Below, in pieces: positions 9,774-53,134 of a DNA stretch of 64,000 bases. A model generated the notes under the pieces. It worked only from the letters and a program-made list of their open reading frames with translations, ran no database searches and was not told where the DNA came from. The translations under genes were made by a program, and so were the position numbers. The stretch is from a virus, in the IMG/VR virus record IMGVR_UViG_3300020733_000013, positions 1 through 64,000 of that record; one strand, 5' to 3'. The first letter of the stretch is position 1, and the number at the start of each line of letters is the position of its first letter.

Positions 9774-9781
9774 GATAAATA
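9774..9781 (+). promoter_or_regulatory. Late promoter (GATAAATA)
   Basis: NATAAATA match 27 bases upstream of the gene at 9808, with an agga ribosome-binding site between. Confidence 0.7.
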
Positions 9782-10887: not shown

Positions 10888-10916
10888 TTGTACCACAGAG
10901 TAATTTGTAGTACAAT
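10888..10916 (+). promoter_or_regulatory. Sigma-70-type promoter for the RecB-like nuclease
   Basis: TTGTAC, 17-bp spacer, TACAAT, seven bases before the start at 10923. An early gene placed inside a late cluster. Confidence 0.65.
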
Positions 10917-10922
10917 TTCCAT

Positions 10923-11609
10923 ATGTACATACCAAATAAATATATTTACCAAGAAATACAAAGAGTTGAAACACCACAAGGACGAAGATACGCTACACCT
11001 GATGGTGAGAAACTTCCATCAGTAACTACGATTCTTTCAGCAACTACACCTAAAGAAAAACAAGAAGCATTACAGAATTGGCGCAATAGAGTTGGTCATC
11101 AAAAAGCGCAAGCAATTGTTACAGAAGCTGCAGGTCGAGGCACAAGAATGCACAAATTCTTGGAAGACTATATCAAAACAGGTATATTAAATGAATCAGG
11201 ATCAAACCCATATAGTATCCAAAGTCACAAAATGGCTGACTCAATTATCAGGCAGGGTCTATGTAATTGCACTGAGTTCTGGGGTACAGAAGTCCCACTT
11301 TACTTCCCTGCGGTCTATGCAGGAACAACTGATTTGGTCGGTGTCCATGATGGTAGTGAATCTATCATGGATCATAAGCAGACTAATAAACCCAAAAAAC
11401 GTGAGTGGATCGATGACTACTTCATCCAACTTGCGGCTTATGCAACTGCACATAATGAACTTCACGGAACAAAGATCCGCAAAGGAGTCATTTTTATGTG
11501 CGATCCAAATGCTATGTACCAAGAGTTTATAATTGAAGGTACTGAGTTTGACCAGTATCAACAAGAGTGGTATAAACGCCTAGAACAATACTACAGTCAG
11601 TTCGTTTGA
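10923..11609 (+). CDS. PD-(D/E)xK (RecB/Cas4-like) nuclease
   Basis: 228 residues. The pattern is that of RecB-like PD-(D/E)xK exonucleases in T4-like aquatic phages: helical GRGTRMHKFLEDY, then AGTTDLVGVHDG (Asp near 136), then IMDHKQT (Asp150, Lys152), then the Q-x-x-x-Y motif IQLAAYATAH. These bind metal and cut DNA; likely roles are recombination, end processing or host DNA breakdown. The start follows a sigma-70 promoter very closely, leaving little room for a leader, and no clear Shine-Dalgarno sequence is visible. Confidence 0.8.
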   Translation: MYIPNKYIYQEIQRVETPQGRRYATPDGEKLPSVTTILSATTPKEKQEALQNWRNRVGHQKAQAIVTEAAGRGTRMHKFLEDYIKTGILNESGSNPYSIQSHKMADSIIRQGLCNCTEFWGTEVPLYFPAVYAGTTDLVGVHDGSESIMDHKQTNKPKKREWIDDYFIQLAAYATAHNELHGTKIRKGVIFMCDPNAMYQEFIIEGTEFDQYQQEWYKRLEQYYSQFV

Positions 11610-11614
11610 TACGT

Positions 11615-11622
11615 GATAAATA
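11615..11622 (+). promoter_or_regulatory. Late promoter (GATAAATA) inside a 10-bp start-codon hairpin
   Basis: The perfect inverted repeat ATAGTATAAT (11620-11629) / ATTATACTAT (11636-11645) covers the start codon at 11644. Its left arm overlaps the promoter and lies mostly upstream of the predicted start near 11628. Confidence 0.8.
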
Positions 11623-11643
11623 GTATAATTAACGGATTATACT

Positions 11644-12990
11644 ATGGCAATCGTACAAATATCAAAGATTCAACACAGAACAGGCGCAAACGTTGACTTA
11701 CCTCAACTTGACGTAGGTGAGATCGGGTTCGCAAGTGATGAACGTAAAATTTATATAGGAAATGATCCTGTATTATATCCACCAGTAGGTGACGGAACAA
11801 CACAAACTGAAATCTTAACAGATTCAAGTACACTAAGTTTTAATCAGATTAACGGTACAAACAATACTGCTATCAGTCTTAATTCAACTGCCCCCGGTGA
11901 GTTGCTAGTTGCACAAGAAATCAATGGTGTGCTTACTTGGGTCAATGGTGGTAGCACGACAGGTGTTCCAATTGATTTAGGCAATGCATCTAACGTTAAA
12001 CTTGAAGGTGGGTTCAACGGTGCAGTACTACAATCAGACGGCATGGGTAATCTATCATGGGTTACTAATGGTGCTGTGCAATATGCAATCGCAGGTATCA
12101 CAAGTGCTGATACAGGCGTATTAACAACTACAACAACAAACTATATTCCAACTGGTGCTGCTGTAACAATTACAGGAATTACTGATTCAGGTGGCGCATC
12201 GTTCCAAACAGGTGGTGCCGGTGGTACTAACATGTATTATGTTAAACGTAATAATGATGGTTCATTGAGTTTGTATGAGGATAGCGGCTTGTCCTCACCA
12301 GTTGCAACTAACGGCTTCTTGTCTTATGTTGCTACTACTGGTACAATCACTGCAATGGTACAAGCATCAGGTGCAGCAAGTGCAGGCGGCTCAAATACAC
12401 AGATTCAATTTAATGATGGTGGTAGTACATTAAACGGAACAGGTAACTTAACATATAACAAAACAACAAACGTACTTACAATGTCAGGTAATATTGTTGT
12501 TGGAAATGTTGTTGGTAACAGTTATGGTTACTTCAATGGTCCAATAGGAAACACAACTCCTAATACAGGTAAGTTCACTAGCACTTTTGTTGGTAACACA
12601 ACTGCCAACGTTTTAGTAACAGGTGGCAATGTTTCTGCAACTGCTAATATCACAGCAGATATTATTCATGCCACACACAATGGTTCAGGAACTAACTTCC
12701 AAGTTGGTGATGATGCTTGGATTGGTGATATCAATACTACAAATACACTAGTCATCAAGGGTCAGCAAGACCCTACAACGGGCTATGTTGTATTTGGTAA
12801 CGCAGATACAACTAGCACATTAGGTCGTAGTGGTTCAGGTGCATTGACATACAACGGTGATTTTACTGCTAACGGTAACGTAACTGCCGGCAACATCCAC
12901 TTAGGTACTTGGTCAATCTTTGCAAATACTAACGGTATCTATGCAAACAACGGAACACATACGTTCAGCATTGGTTTGACCCAAATCTGA
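11644..12990 (+). CDS. Tail-fibre-like virion protein
   Basis: 448 residues. It begins MAIVQISKIQHRTG, a typical N-terminus of aquatic T4-like phage fibres and structural proteins. The rest is low-complexity Gly/Thr/Asn/Ser beta sequence with a fibre-like block (GGSNTQIQFNDGGSTL) and repeated NGNVTAGNI-type elements shared with the long fibres at 34655 and 59614. It is probably a receptor-binding or fibre component acting outside the particle. Its start codon is buried in an inverted repeat overlapping the late promoter. Confidence 0.75.
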   Translation: MAIVQISKIQHRTGANVDLPQLDVGEIGFASDERKIYIGNDPVLYPPVGDGTTQTEILTDSSTLSFNQINGTNNTAISLNSTAPGELLVAQEINGVLTWVNGGSTTGVPIDLGNASNVKLEGGFNGAVLQSDGMGNLSWVTNGAVQYAIAGITSADTGVLTTTTTNYIPTGAAVTITGITDSGGASFQTGGAGGTNMYYVKRNNDGSLSLYEDSGLSSPVATNGFLSYVATTGTITAMVQASGAASAGGSNTQIQFNDGGSTLNGTGNLTYNKTTNVLTMSGNIVVGNVVGNSYGYFNGPIGNTTPNTGKFTSTFVGNTTANVLVTGGNVSATANITADIIHATHNGSGTNFQVGDDAWIGDINTTNTLVIKGQQDPTTGYVVFGNADTTSTLGRSGSGALTYNGDFTANGNVTAGNIHLGTWSIFANTNGIYANNGTHTFSIGLTQI

Positions 12991-30769: not shown

Positions 30770-30777
30770 AATAAATA
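30770..30777 (+). promoter_or_regulatory. Late promoter (AATAAATA) with RBS stem-loop
   Basis: CTACTAT (30778-30784) and ATAGTAG (30791-30797) form a 7-bp stem whose loop holds the agg site of the gene at 30799. The predicted late start near 30783 lies inside the left arm. Confidence 0.75.
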
Positions 30778-30798
30778 CTACTATTATAGGATAGTAGA

Positions 30799-31287
30799 AT
30801 GACCAAGAAATTAAGTGAACTTTTTGACCTACCCCCTTCTGATGATAATGTCAATGAAGAATTGATAGAAGCGGAACAGGTTCAAGAAGTTACACAAGAA
30901 GCATATTCAAATTTAGAAAAAATTGAGAATGCACTACCACAAGTTCGTGGATTAGAGGCCAGTGACACTGAGATGGATACACTTGCACAATTAGCAACGG
31001 AAAGCTACAAAGACTTAATGGACTTGGGAATGCAAGTTGATAGCCGTTTTGCTAGTGAAATATTCAACAGTGCTGGAACTATGTTAGGTCATGCTATCAC
31101 GGCAAAGACCGCAAAGATTAACAAGAAACTTAAGATGCTAGATTTGCAACTTAAGAAAGCAGCACTTGACCAAAAAGTTGCAGCAAAAACTGAAGAAATT
31201 GAGAATGTACCTGTTGGAGAAGGTAGCTTAGTAGACCGTAATGAACTACTGAAAACTATTCTGGCAAGTAAAAAACAAGACAAGTGA
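30799..31287 (+). CDS. 16: Terminase small subunit (gp16)
   Basis: 162 residues, helical, acidic N-terminus followed by a long helical region (EAYSNLEKIENALPQVRGLE ... ESYKDLMDLGMQVDSRFASE ... KTAKINKKLKMLDLQLKKAA). This is the pattern of gp16-type small terminases in aquatic T4-like phages, which form rings that regulate DNA packaging by gp17. The large subunit gene does not follow, unlike T4, and must be elsewhere in the genome. Confidence 0.75.
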   Translation: MTKKLSELFDLPPSDDNVNEELIEAEQVQEVTQEAYSNLEKIENALPQVRGLEASDTEMDTLAQLATESYKDLMDLGMQVDSRFASEIFNSAGTMLGHAITAKTAKINKKLKMLDLQLKKAALDQKVAAKTEEIENVPVGEGSLVDRNELLKTILASKKQDK

Positions 31288-42517: not shown

Positions 42518-42525
42518 TATAAATA
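42518..42525 (+). promoter_or_regulatory. Late promoter (TATAAATA) predicted to give leaderless mRNA
   Basis: Exact T4 late consensus; with T4 spacing +1 falls on the A of the ATG at 42531. No Shine-Dalgarno sequence is present. Confidence 0.75.
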
Positions 42526-48344: not shown

Positions 48345-49082
48345 ATGGCAACATTACTAGCACAGAAGTCAGGTACAACTGACAATGCGATAGCAAAGAG
48401 TGACGACCACCATGATGCATTAGCAAGTGATCCTACAGTTAGTGCATTCCCATCAGGAAGTGCATTCGGCTCAACAACACCAGCTGCATCTACAGCAGCA
48501 AGCACAAGTTCATTCGGAGGGTCTTCAAGTGGATTCGGATCAACAACAAGTACAAGTTCAGCAGGAGGCTTTGGCAGCTCCTCAGGTTTCGGTTCAACAA
48601 CGTCCAACTCTTTCGGAGCATCAACGTCAGCAACAGCAGGCGGTTTCGGAGCTTCAACTGGATTTGGAGCAGCTTCAACTGGATCAACAGGTTTCGGCGC
48701 GTCAGGCGGGATGAGTGGTGGAATGCAACAAAGTTCTTTCCAATCAGTTCAAAATCAAGGAGAATCATTGAAGTCAGGCGGCGGCGCAATGAGTGAAGGT
48801 GGAGAATCTACAGTCAAGCTAGACAAAGATGCCACTGACTGGATTAACAAAAAGATGCGCCCAATGATGGGTTGGATCTACATGTTGACATGCACTTGCG
48901 ACTTTGTATTGTTCCCAATCTTATGGTCAGTATTACAAGCAATGACACATGGTAATGTAACTAGTCAATGGCAACCATTGACACTACAAGGTGCTGGATT
49001 GTATCACATCGCAATGGGTGCAGTTCTAGGTATCGCAGCTTACGGTCGTACAAAAGAAAAGGTAGCCGGCGTAGCTTCATAA
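48345..49082 (+). CDS. Holin with FG-repeat disordered N-terminal region
   Basis: 245 residues. Residues ~35-125 are Ser/Thr/Gly/Ala-rich with about nine Phe-Gly dipeptides at 8-14-residue spacing (SAFGST, SSFGGS, SGFGST, GGFGSS, NSFGAS, TGFGAS). This resembles nucleoporin FG repeats and lacks predicted structure. The C-terminal ~75 residues (MRPMMGWIYMLTCTCDFVLF, then PILWSVLQAM, then LTLQGAGLYHIAMGAVLGIA) look like the three-transmembrane holin family of gene-transfer agents and phages. Holins form membrane lesions that free endolysin, here probably the GH19 enzyme. The FG extension is unusual. Confidence 0.75.
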   Translation: MATLLAQKSGTTDNAIAKSDDHHDALASDPTVSAFPSGSAFGSTTPAASTAASTSSFGGSSSGFGSTTSTSSAGGFGSSSGFGSTTSNSFGASTSATAGGFGASTGFGAASTGSTGFGASGGMSGGMQQSSFQSVQNQGESLKSGGGAMSEGGESTVKLDKDATDWINKKMRPMMGWIYMLTCTCDFVLFPILWSVLQAMTHGNVTSQWQPLTLQGAGLYHIAMGAVLGIAAYGRTKEKVAGVAS

Positions 49083-49085
49083 ATA

Positions 49086-49114
49086 TTGACGAATAGCACC
49101 TAACGTGCTATACT
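49086..49114 (+). promoter_or_regulatory. Sigma-70-type early promoter for the DnaJ/ClpA operon
   Basis: TTGACG, 17-bp spacer, TATACT, ten bases before the DnaJ-like start codon. Confidence 0.78.
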
Positions 49115-49123
49115 AATAATATT

Positions 49124-49951
49124 ATGAGTGACTATTATCAAACCCTCGGGGTAGCAAAAAACGCTACCCCTGAAGACATTAAAAAAGCATATCGCAGAAT
49201 GGCTGGCATTCACCATCCAGACAAGGGTGGTGATACTGCACAGTTTCAAAAGATTCAAGAGGCATACGAAACCCTCTCTGATCCACAAAAACGTCAACAA
49301 TACGATAATCCAAATCCATTTGGTCATGGTCAAATGCCTGGTGGATTCCCCGGTGGAATGCATGGCTTTCCCGGTGGATTCAGTTTCCAAATGGGTGGAT
49401 TTGGTATGGACGACATTTTTGGACAAATGTTTGGTCATCCAGGACAACGCGGTAGACCACAACAACCTAGCTATCGTACTATAGTTTGGTTAACACTTGA
49501 ACAAGCATACAATGGCGAAGAGCAAATGTTAAACTTCCAAACACCTGGATTAGGTCAACAAACGGTTAAACTGTCAGTGCCCAAAGGCATAGATGATGGA
49601 GCAACACTGCGTTATGATAACCTAATCAAAGACAGTATCTTAATCGCTGAATTTAGAATTCAACCACATGCTAAGTTCCAACGTGATGGTATGAATCTAC
49701 ATTCGGTACATGATATCAGTGTACTAGATTTGATTGTGGGTACAACCATTAAGTTTAAAACTATTTCGGGTAAAGAACTTGATGTTACAGTAAAACCAGT
49801 AACACAACCCGGTAGTTCACTACGCATTGCCGGCGAAGGTATGATAAATGACAGGGGAGCAGGTGACCAATTTATATTGTTGAAACCATTTATTCCTGAT
49901 AGAATTGACTCTCGTATAACTGATAGCATTTTGCAATCAAAACAAAAGTAA
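49124..49951 (+). CDS. dnaJ: DnaJ-like cochaperone (type II, CbpA-like)
   Basis: 275 residues. J domain at the N-terminus (MSDYYQTLGVAKNATPEDIK, with HPD at 31-33), then a Gly/Phe-rich linker (GGFPGGMHGFPGGFSFQMGG), then two beta-rich client-binding domains. The zinc-finger domain of DnaJ is missing, making it type II. J proteins recruit Hsp70 (host DnaK) to substrates. It is followed 22 bases later by a ClpA-like unfoldase. Early expression is indicated by the upstream promoter. Confidence 0.93.
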   Translation: MSDYYQTLGVAKNATPEDIKKAYRRMAGIHHPDKGGDTAQFQKIQEAYETLSDPQKRQQYDNPNPFGHGQMPGGFPGGMHGFPGGFSFQMGGFGMDDIFGQMFGHPGQRGRPQQPSYRTIVWLTLEQAYNGEEQMLNFQTPGLGQQTVKLSVPKGIDDGATLRYDNLIKDSILIAEFRIQPHAKFQRDGMNLHSVHDISVLDLIVGTTIKFKTISGKELDVTVKPVTQPGSSLRIAGEGMINDRGAGDQFILLKPFIPDRIDSRITDSILQSKQK

Positions 49952-49973: not shown

Positions 49974-52244
49974 ATGCACCCAGAAATCGAAGCCATCATT
50001 GAACATGCAATTGAATTGGCTAAGTCAAAAAGCCATCAATATTGTACAGTAGAGCACTTGTTACTAAGCCTAGTATCACATGCTCCCTTTAAGAAAGTGT
50101 TAGACTCTTATGGAGTTGACACTGAAATGATGACTAAGGAAATTGACGTATACTTAAATGGGTTACAAGCAATTACAGTAACACTAGGTCCCGGACAAGA
50201 GATTCAACCACGTAAAACAAATAGTTTGGAACGTGTTACAAACCGTGCAGTAGCACAAACATTGTTCTTGGGTCGTAAACAAGTTACAACTATTGACCTT
50301 TACTTGAGCATTTCAAGCGAAGCAAATAGTCATGCACATTATTTCTTGTTGAAATATGGCATTGAGAAAAGTCAATTTGTACCTTACTGGCAAAAGAATT
50401 ACAAGAACGAAGGTGCTCTTGTACGATTAAGCAACGAACAAGCAGACGAAATCTTAGAAGAATACACAACAAACTTGACTGATTTGGCTCGTCAGCATAA
50501 ACTAGAACCAATGATCGGTCGTAGCCAAGAAGTTGATGACATTGTAAACGTATTGGCTAAACGTTTCAAAAGCAACGTGTTACTAGTTGGTGATCCAGGT
50601 GTAGGTAAAACTGCTATTGTCGAAGGTATGGCTCAAATGATTGCAGAAGGTAACGTGCCTGAGTTCTTAGTTGGTCACGAAGTTTACAGCTTGGAAATCG
50701 GTAGCTTACTTGCTGGTAGTAAATATCGCGGTGACTTTGAAGAAAAGGTCAAAGCAGTCATTGAAGCACTTAACACCAAGAAACAAACTATCTTGTTTAT
50801 TGACGAAGCACATACAATGCAAGGTGCAGGTTCAAGTTCTCAAAGTGGTCCAGACTTTGCAAACATGATTAAGCCTGCAATTACAAAAGGTACATTGAAA
50901 GTTATTGCAAGTACTACTTGGGAAGAGTACTATGAGAGTTTTGAGAAGGATCGTGCATTAATGCGTAGATTCTATCGTGTCTCAGTAGATGAACCAAATC
51001 GTGATTCAACAGTTCGCATTTTAAGTGGCTTAAGTGGTCGTTTGGATGACTTCCATAGTGTTAAGATCACACCCGAAGCGGTTGAAGCAGCAGTTGACAG
51101 TGCTACACGTTACATGCATGACCGTAAAAATCCTGATAAATCTATTGACTTATTAGATGCAGCTTGTGCTAAACAACGTGTATTAGGTAACAAAGACGCA
51201 CAAATCACTAAAGAATTGATTTACGAGCAAGTTGAACGTATCTCTGGAGTACCAGCAGATAAACTCAGTAACGACAACAACGAACGTATCACAAACCTTG
51301 AGTCTAATATCAAAGACAAATTGTACGGTCAAGAGGAATCAGTTAGTAAAGTACTTGACCGTATATATGTCTCGTTTGCAGGTATCGGTAGTCAAACTAA
51401 ACCACTTGCAAGTTTCTTATTCTTGGGCCCAACTGGTACAGGTAAGACTGAACTGGCTAAGCAATTGAGCAAGAACTTAGATATGCCATTACTCAAATAT
51501 GATATGAGCGAGTATTCAGAGAAGTTCAATGTTAGTTCATTGCTTGGTGCGCCTCCTGGATATGTTGGTTATGGTGAAAGTAGCTTAGGTGGTGGTAAAC
51601 TTATCAATGACTTGAGTAAGAATCCACATGCTATTCTATTGTTTGATGAAGTTGAAAAAGCTCACCCAGATATCTTTAACATTTTCTTGCAATTACTTGA
51701 CGAAGGTCGTGTAACAGGAACTAATGGTAAAGAAGTCAATGCTAAAAACTGTATAATTATCATGACCAGTAACTTGGGTAGTAGTGACAGCGAACGTGCA
51801 GTAATTGGTTTTGGTAGTACTGAACGTACGGGTGATGATGAAAAAGCATTGAAGGACTTCTTCAAGCCTGAATTCAGAAACCGTATTGACTTGATTACTA
51901 AGTTCAACAAACTTGACAATCTTGCAATTAAGAAAGTGGTTATCAAGTTTACTGACGAGTTAAAGAAAGCATTGAAGGATACACAAGATATCGTGTTGAC
52001 TTTAACAGAACCAGTAGTTGATTACTTAGCAGAACAGGGCTACGATAGTAAGATGGGCGCACGTCCTCTTGCACGTAAAATTGATGAACTAATTCGTGTT
52101 CCATTGAGTAAGAAGATTCTTTTTGAACGTATTAGAAGTGCAAATATTACTGTAGTGATGAATGACGGTAAAGTTGATTTTGAAGTACATCAAAAAATGA
52201 TTGCAGAAGTAGGCGAAGATGGCATTATTAAAATCAGCAACTAA
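49974..52244 (+). CDS. clpA: ClpA-like AAA+ unfoldase
   Basis: 756 residues, almost exactly ClpA length (758). It has a double-Clp N domain and a first AAA+ module with GDPGVGKT (about 206-213) and TILFIDEAHTM. There is no ClpB middle domain. The second AAA+ module has GPTGTGKTE (from about 485) and LLFDEVEKAHPD. Downstream lies ERAVIGFGS near residue 611, at the place of the IGL/IGF loop that docks ClpA/ClpX onto ClpP. This suggests it can use host ClpP. T4 itself has no such gene. Confidence 0.9.
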   Translation: MHPEIEAIIEHAIELAKSKSHQYCTVEHLLLSLVSHAPFKKVLDSYGVDTEMMTKEIDVYLNGLQAITVTLGPGQEIQPRKTNSLERVTNRAVAQTLFLGRKQVTTIDLYLSISSEANSHAHYFLLKYGIEKSQFVPYWQKNYKNEGALVRLSNEQADEILEEYTTNLTDLARQHKLEPMIGRSQEVDDIVNVLAKRFKSNVLLVGDPGVGKTAIVEGMAQMIAEGNVPEFLVGHEVYSLEIGSLLAGSKYRGDFEEKVKAVIEALNTKKQTILFIDEAHTMQGAGSSSQSGPDFANMIKPAITKGTLKVIASTTWEEYYESFEKDRALMRRFYRVSVDEPNRDSTVRILSGLSGRLDDFHSVKITPEAVEAAVDSATRYMHDRKNPDKSIDLLDAACAKQRVLGNKDAQITKELIYEQVERISGVPADKLSNDNNERITNLESNIKDKLYGQEESVSKVLDRIYVSFAGIGSQTKPLASFLFLGPTGTGKTELAKQLSKNLDMPLLKYDMSEYSEKFNVSSLLGAPPGYVGYGESSLGGGKLINDLSKNPHAILLFDEVEKAHPDIFNIFLQLLDEGRVTGTNGKEVNAKNCIIIMTSNLGSSDSERAVIGFGSTERTGDDEKALKDFFKPEFRNRIDLITKFNKLDNLAIKKVVIKFTDELKKALKDTQDIVLTLTEPVVDYLAEQGYDSKMGARPLARKIDELIRVPLSKKILFERIRSANITVVMNDGKVDFEVHQKMIAEVGEDGIIKISN

Positions 52245-52938
52245 TTCACCGGGTGTTGACCTGCAAGAGTATCGTGACGAGTTGTACTATAGTCAATATC
52301 AGTACCGTTGCAGGATCACAATACCTCACTTTCGTAGAGCACAATACTATTCACCAGATGAATTTGAACAAATGGTATTAGGCAATAGTAAAAAATTCAT
52401 TAGGTTAAAACAGGATGAAAGAGATACTCTTGCTCAACACTTACCTAGCATCAAAAAAGTATTGCAGTATAGAATTGACAGTAAAAAGAACAAGTCTAGC
52501 AAAGTTCGCGGTGAATATGATACTATCTCTGTATTCAGCAATGACCTACAATCACTACATGATAATTTTGATAACCTAACAGATGCGTGTGTTGACTTCA
52601 CTGAGGTTATCACTACCGGGTATTCGGGGGTCAAAACTTTTGCAAATGAACCTAAACACAAGTATAGAATTTATTTCAAAAGCAAACGAATCCCAGAAGA
52701 CTTCAAAGATGGATTGAAGAAAATCTTAACTACTAACACACAATTGAGACCAAGTCCTGCTCTTAAAATGTGGTTAGATCAGAAAGAAGATAGTCAATGG
52801 TACTGGAATTTCCGTTACATGTCTAGCAGTTACTTTATTGACTATAATGACGAGAGTTATCTTAGCTATTTGGCACTAATGTATGACGGTATGCTGGGTA
52901 GAAAGTACAAATTGGAAAAGCGAGCCGATATCGTCTGA
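52219..52938 (+). CDS. Conserved protein of unknown function coupled to ClpA-like gene
   Basis: 239 residues; its start overlaps the ClpA-like gene by 26 bases. Basic, helical, with conserved-looking YRCRITIPHFRRAQYYSPDE, CVDFTEVITTGYSGVKTF and WYWNFRYMSSSYFIDYNDES. The overlap suggests it is made together with the unfoldase and could be an adaptor, but this is inference. No family recognised. Confidence 0.68.
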   Translation: MALLKSATNSPGVDLQEYRDELYYSQYQYRCRITIPHFRRAQYYSPDEFEQMVLGNSKKFIRLKQDERDTLAQHLPSIKKVLQYRIDSKKNKSSKVRGEYDTISVFSNDLQSLHDNFDNLTDACVDFTEVITTGYSGVKTFANEPKHKYRIYFKSKRIPEDFKDGLKKILTTNTQLRPSPALKMWLDQKEDSQWYWNFRYMSSSYFIDYNDESYLSYLALMYDGMLGRKYKLEKRADIV

Positions 52939-52942
52939 GCAT

Positions 52943-52950
52943 GATAAATA
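52943..52950 (+). promoter_or_regulatory. Late promoter (GATAAATA) within a 9-bp RBS hairpin
   Basis: TAAATACTC (52945-52953) and GAGTATTTA (52962-52970) pair perfectly, enclosing or overlapping the ggag site (52961-52964). The predicted late start near 52956 lies after the left arm, so only read-through RNA from the DnaJ/ClpA operon would fold. Confidence 0.82.
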
Positions 52951-52972
52951 CTCTATTAATGGAGTATTTACC

Positions 52973-53134
52973 ATGGCAAAGATTATTGAGAACGTACTAG
53001 TTGTTAAAGTCAGCAAACTAGTAAAAGAGGGAGCGGATGAGAATCTGATTCCACAAGACACCCAACAAGCATTAGAACAAGTCGCCCAAGAATTATTGGG
53101 TGATTCCGTCATTGTAGAAGTGGAACGAGCATAA
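52973..53134 (+). CDS. Small late protein of unknown function
   Basis: 53 residues from the ATG with ggag upstream; a longer upstream reading frame lies before the late transcript start. Sequence MAKIIENVLVVKVSKLVKEG ... VAQELLGDSVIVEVERA looks like a compact beta-alpha fold. It shares a base with the next start (TAATG). Its RBS is inside a perfect 9-bp repeat overlapping the late promoter. Confidence 0.68.
   Translation: MAKIIENVLVVKVSKLVKEGADENLIPQDTQQALEQVAQELLGDSVIVEVERA

Follow-up and report, generated by a model that had tools for sequence, protein, structure and literature searches.

A conserved start-codon hairpin that overlaps a putative late promoter in a large group of myoviruses resembles the translational hairpins of T4 late genes

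Introduction

The late promoter of phage T4 is described in a passage of PMC2988020 as an 8-bp box with its first base at -13, and by this numbering a late transcript would start 6 nt after the box. A lock-and-release mechanism is documented for the T4 genes e, soc, 49, I-TevI to I-TevIII and segB and for mobE of Aeh1, and the effect at e is given as 100-fold (Uzan and Miller, PMC3014915; Edgell et al., PMC2988022). In gene 49, e and soc a late promoter box is found in or beside the left arm of a hairpin whose right arm covers the start region, and late RNA lacks the left arm.

Here we describe a similar arrangement in a virus record of 75,890 bases, of which the first 64 kb were analyzed (hereafter the window, meaning that whole stretch of 64,000 nucleotides). 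The window belongs to a myovirus, with genes for tail sheath, tail tube, head closure, endolysin and clamp loader, and PA5oct and Atu_ph07 are among the cultured phages that its tail sheath matches best. A literature search limited to titles and abstracts, covering few subscription journals, returned no statement of leaderless late genes in T4-like phages, of such hairpins in jumbo phages, or of hairpin capture by homing endonucleases. What is new in this work is the depth of conservation, a SegE-like GIY-YIG gene that carries the leader of a tail gene, and late AUGs at the predicted transcript start. In a large myovirus group, most of it uncultivated, lasting selection appears to keep at a single gene junction a control device known from a few T4 genes, and dozens of natural variants are available for testing how hairpins block ribosomes.

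Results and discussion

The hairpin and its T4 counterparts

Only 34 bases separate a presumed early exonuclease gene from a tail-fibre-like gene with an Mtd_N domain, and they contain the box GATAAATA and a 10-bp inverted repeat (Table 1). The perfect arms enclose the loop TAACGG; with an added U.G pair the stem reaches 11 bp and the loop shrinks to 4. The PA5oct protein at the position of the Mtd_N gene is annotated as 'structural protein, ESI-MS/MS'. The first-pass annotation of this DNA had reported a perfect 10-bp hairpin with a 6-base loop, a left arm that begins inside GATAAATA and a right arm over the A and U of the AUG; its sequence and coordinates were correct, the last three bases of the box being the start of the left arm and the right arm ending on the U. 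It had also called the hairpin unlikely by chance and the longest of a series. Length alone is weak evidence against chance, because perfect hairpins of 10 bp or more (loops of 3-12) occur five times in the window and 0-4 times in 20 dinucleotide shuffles. Placement does argue against chance, since the box-to-AUG stem score at this site was equaled in 0 of 500 shuffles (P about 0.002). The hairpin is not strictly the longest, as the one at 52943 also reaches 11 bp when folded and has an outer extension besides.

Table 1. Coordinates of the features discussed, as positions in the window.
Feature	Position	Strand	Basis or remark
Sigma-70-like promoter, TTGTAC-17 nt-TACAAT	10888..10916	+	8/12 match by eye; 6 nt before exonuclease ATG
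Exonuclease, PD-(D/E)XK type, presumed early	10923..11609	+	phrog_298, E 4e-57
GATAAATA, T4-type late promoter box	11615..11622	+	-13 to -6 by T4 numbering (passage of PMC2988020)
Left arm ATAGTATAAT	11620-11629	+	inverted-repeat search and folding; 11630 adds the U.G pair
Predicted late transcription start	11628	+	6 nt past box; T4 numbering and AUG peak 4-5 nt after box
Right arm ATTATACTAT	11636-11645	+	holds A and U of AUG 11644-11646
Tail-fibre-like structural protein with Mtd_N N-terminal domain; gene under the hairpin	11644..12990	+	PF18454, E 2e-6
Second hairpin, AATAAATA box	30770..30801; arms 30778-30785 / 30790-30797; ATG 30799	+	only partly conserved
Third hairpin, GATAAATA box	52943..52975; arms 52947-52955 / 52960-52968 over GGAG; ATG 52973	+	folding

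For comparison, two T4 leaders, those of gene 49 and I-TevII, were taken from the record of that phage and folded. In gene 49 the left arm contains AATAAATA, and the last base of the right arm is the U of the AUG, as in the window. Gene 49, e and soc share with the window a late box in or adjoining the left arm, a right arm over the start region, and late RNA without the left arm, which for the window is predicted. The window differs from these three in belonging to another phage group, in carrying a tail-fibre-like gene after an exonuclease, in lacking a clear Shine-Dalgarno sequence, in a stem that, in nearly all relatives, has its first pairs at the final ATA of the box, and in being known from sequence alone. 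The leaders of I-TevI, I-TevII, I-TevIII, segB and mobE, all homing endonuclease genes of T4-like phages, show the same lock and release, but the locked gene in the window is a structural gene and not an endonuclease. We place the window element with the T4-type translational hairpins released by a late promoter.

Very likely, the hairpin works in cis as an RNA lock on translation, and the late promoter opens it. RNA from upstream, whether made early from the sigma-70-like promoter of the exonuclease or from a late promoter at 9774, would contain both arms and would fold the AUG and its surroundings into the 11-bp stem, leaving the tail gene untranslated. Late transcription from GATAAATA would begin at about 11628; since the box overlaps the left arm, this RNA is predicted to lose its 5' arm, down to the last one or two bases, and would stay unfolded and be translated. 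The start assumed here follows from T4 numbering and from the spacing of late AUGs described below. Predicted folding is consistent with both states. The read-through RNA gave -16.8 kcal/mol (z -3.2) with the AUG paired in the 11-bp stem, and RNA starting at 11628 gave -1.5 kcal/mol, no better than shuffles and essentially unfolded there. Shine-Dalgarno sequences in the leader are weak or in the loop, and none is strong. Rfam curated models gave no match to positions 11400-11900 up to E 1. An outer stem, in which the end of the exonuclease gene pairs with codons 4-8 of the tail gene, was also predicted in the window. Its mean duplex energy over 65 leaders was -6.61, only just below that of swapped pairs (-6.09, sd 0.20, lowest of 40 at -6.60), and we do not claim it as conserved.

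The late promoter

Late boxes were located with the pattern NATAAATA, which has 23 sites on both strands of the window, 20 of them with an ATG within 70 nt. When an ATG within 60 nt was specified, 43 sites were found in the window and stretches of one relative, compared with 2-7 for three scrambled patterns. This excess makes the GATAAATA box a credible late promoter, in agreement with the first-pass annotation, which had proposed one here. A gp55-like late sigma (phrog_234) was found in five of six related records and was not found in the 75.9-kb record of the window, which may be a fragment. A search of the records with a gp33 model, for which there was no positive control, gave no match.

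The distance from box to AUG points to the position of the transcript start. Among 91 AUGs in three records, 19 were exactly 4 or 5 nt after a NATAAATA box, and a separate second peak was at 18-22 nt. On the simplest reading, AUGs 4-5 nt past the box sit at the transcript start, and this spacing suggests leaderless late mRNAs. Such AUGs were observed in the window at 42518, 47150 and 8839, and in relatives at L105/L514, L414, L419, L424, L427, L519, L527, L530, L533, L543 and L547. Late and sigma-70-like promoters also occur side by side: at 49078-49126 of the window, CATAAATA is followed by TTGACG-17-TATACT and a hairpin ahead of a DnaJ-like gene (recognized by eye in the translation).

Conservation of the stem in relatives

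Two scans with the exonuclease as query, from which the best 80 of 476 and the best 80 of at least 599 matches were kept, yielded 160 loci; the scans share contigs, so the loci are not all independent. Eight of the 161 entries (window included) were lost, five cut by a contig end, one before the stop, and two related records (L160 and L161) without a late box. The 153 usable entries gave 68 distinct 45-mers. The stem is kept with at most one mismatch in 64 of these 68 distinct leaders between exonuclease and Mtd_N gene, with about a dozen arm sequences, a count for which ten short-stem rows were read one by one. It has 9-12 contiguous pairs in 58 leaders and one mismatch in six (L056, L099, L104, L138, L148 and L152). 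The four leaders without the stem are L068, L105 and L134, the last two of which have no room for it, and L143, in which a hairpin spares the AUG. A separate scan with the Mtd_N protein gave 80 loci, 79 with the exonuclease upstream, and a stem of at least 8 bp was present in 78 of the 79; at the 80th the stem is present and the upstream sequence is too short to show an exonuclease. Counted by distinct leader of the Mtd_N gene, 29 of 30 had a stem of at least 8 bp.

The left arms differ greatly among relatives, and each is accompanied by its complement. Besides ATAGTATAAT they include ATAGTTTAAT, ATAGTATATTC, ATAATATATC, ATAAGTGTAA and ATAAGTATGA, and further variants are ATAAGTTAAT, ATAAGTGATAAT, ATAATTGTGAT, ATAAATGTACT and ATAGATTTAATA. 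A MAFFT alignment of the leaders shifts the two main stem families by one column, and pairs were therefore counted on arms anchored at both ends. The four leaders without the structure were dropped, which raises the percentage; with the window included, the count covered 65 rows, among which 47 arm pairs were distinct. In these, 82% of variable pairs were formed, compared with a mean of 50% and a maximum of 60% in 1000 swaps of whole right arms, and 25-52% after sliding the arms by 1-3 nt. Double-change cells numbered 130, against at most 72 in controls. On the exonuclease tree, much of this co-change proves to be the replacement of one entire stem family by another. For most of pairs 4-8 the slid controls came close to the observed co-change, and pairs 7, 9 and 10 alone gave more than every one of their controls. 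These comparisons indicate that complementarity is conserved and not sequence, and that the stem is maintained by compensatory change, partly through blockwise exchange. The earlier annotation had named arms that diverge in relatives without compensation as evidence against its reading of the hairpin. The opposite was found, and the covariation supports that reading.

The same comparisons bear on three other roles for the repeat. As an inverted repeat that overlaps a promoter, it might be bound as a DNA palindrome by a repressor or nucleoid protein. Such binding would hold the sequence constant, however, and here the arms differ greatly in sequence and the spacers in length, with complementarity preserved, which makes this role most improbable. 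The hairpin also lies a few nucleotides past the exonuclease stop codon, where a terminator or stabilizer at the 3' end of the exonuclease mRNA could be placed. Yet it was not among the sites of an intrinsic terminator scan, and its A+T-rich stem is followed by GGCAAT and not by a U tract. Moreover, the stem in relatives usually runs from the last ATA of the box to the UAU of UAUG, and these are matched in all 47 distinct arm pairs; a 3' element has no need of an outer end fixed on the AUG, and we give this role equally little credence. Since the late start in this phage group is a prediction, the hairpin might instead be retained in late RNA as a translational operator bound by a protein. A conserved loop sequence was sought in the leaders and not found, and the AUGs of other genes 4-5 nt after the box fit a start site that removes the left arm; an operator is accordingly unlikely to a degree only slightly less marked. 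A lock on translation remains the reading that we prefer.

Most other late genes lack the hairpin

Of the 20 box sites tested in the window, three (11615, 30770 and 52943) had a stem with P<=0.01, although a second run of the test gave P 0.023 for 30770. The 52943 site counts in this test and was filtered out of the later survey of late sites in three records. The gene at 30799 had a stem of at least 8 bp in 15 of 40 distinct leaders; 11 had a shorter stem, in eight the AUG was too close, and six had no box. For the gene starting at 52973, which encodes 53 aa, 29 of 48 distinct leaders had the stem, six had a shorter one and 13 had no box; among 18 loci without the box, 12 have a different upstream gene. 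In the window the gene upstream of it (52219-52938) encodes 239 aa and has no PHROG match, and by single-linkage clustering its relatives precede the 53-aa gene in 67 of 80 loci.

The tail-tube gene, which also follows GATAAATA, served as a control. It has an open AGGAGA leader, and a stem of at least 8 bp was found in 0 of 40 distinct boxed leaders. In stretches of a 260-kb relative around GATAAATA sites, only the Mtd_N gene among 18 leadered late sites had a stem with P<0.02, and at a second site the stem was long but not significant (P 0.199). Among 31 leadered late sites of a 364-kb relative, four had a stem with P<0.02, including those of the Mtd_N gene and the 53-aa gene; another of the stemmed genes starts like a GIY-YIG-like ORF found in L068. 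Because the tail tube and most late sites have no stem, the lock appears to be a rare feature kept at particular genes and not a side effect of the promoter.

Source of the upstream RNA

The first-pass annotation had described the upstream gene as an early nuclease with a sigma-70 promoter. Strong promoters of this kind are present in relatives, in which 30 of 100 distinct 60-mers before the exonuclease score 11-12 of 12 for sigma-70 (0.15% of shuffles do so) and 20 of 100 hold a perfect TTGACA/TATAAT pair; the window's own match is only 8/12. TTGACA-17-TATAAT occurs at the homologous position in many relatives, and PA5oct likewise has such a promoter. These data make host RNA polymerase the probable source of the nuclease mRNA, and we infer read-through from the nuclease gene into the tail gene. 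In most high-scoring relatives the -10 box is 5-8 nt ahead of the exonuclease AUG, and early exonuclease mRNA would thus be nearly leaderless. In the window (10888-10916) and its close relatives L001-L017, this promoter is also an inverted repeat, ATTGTACTAC...GTAGTACAAT, over -35 and -10; paired changes in it occur in L009 and L017, and it is perhaps an operator.

A structural gene and a late box at 9774 are just upstream of the exonuclease. With the exonuclease among structural genes and a weak early promoter in the window, the upstream RNA may be largely late. The lock could in that case serve mainly to keep upstream late transcripts of the 9774 operon from being translated into tail protein, leaving the gene's own promoter in sole control of the protein level. 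Hairpins that persist at loci with no visible sigma-70 promoter before the exonuclease are in line with such insulation, whereas the many relatives with perfect early promoters, and the lack of a hairpin at most other late genes, are not. We regard this as possible but doubtful as the main role. Nevertheless, insulation from all upstream RNA is a serious alternative to timing alone, because late transcripts from 9774 would also run through. Both of these are uses of a lock on translation of upstream RNA. The nearest of the cultured relatives examined, PA5oct, carries the promoters and no strong hairpin, which shows that the arrangement can exist without one. It was the only one of ten records examined, among 954 exonuclease-matching phage records, with an annotated structural gene directly after the exonuclease.

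Homing endonuclease and leaderless variants

The junction bears on how homing endonuclease genes get late timing. The leader GATAAATAGTATGATAAAGCGAAGATCATACTATG was present in L073, L077, L078, L082 and L083 (L073 and L082 being one contig), and it starts a GIY-YIG gene in L073, L077 and L078, those in which the next gene was read; the gene in L073 matches SegE_GIY-YIG (PF19835). In L084 the identical leader directly starts the Mtd_N gene. Identity starts 2 nt before the box and stops at the G of the AUG; the exonuclease and Mtd_N sequences on either side are 81% and 79% identical. Behind the GIY-YIG gene, the displaced Mtd_N gene is preceded by a box and by a strong GAGGAG leader that lacks the junction hairpin. 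The simplest account is that the GIY-YIG gene inserted at the start codon and took over the promoter and hairpin; an exchange of leaders is an admissible alternative.

In a 367-kb record (L105/L514), the same tail gene is found behind TATAAATACTATTATGG; its AUG, 4-5 nt past the box, would make the late mRNA leaderless instead of providing it with a hairpin lock. This may indicate two interchangeable devices for late-only expression, a hairpin opened by starting in its left arm and a leaderless mRNA, with takeover of the lock by an endonuclease gene; we put this forward tentatively, as a scheme with the chances against it. If it is true, homing endonuclease genes would acquire late-only timing by entering a locked gene at its start codon. 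Two further loci have an inserted ORF at this junction. In L080 a GIY-YIG-like ORF was recognized by eye (a KWYIGKD motif, not a Pfam match), and the displaced gene has no box close by. In L068 hairpins are present at both the inserted ORF and the Mtd_N gene.
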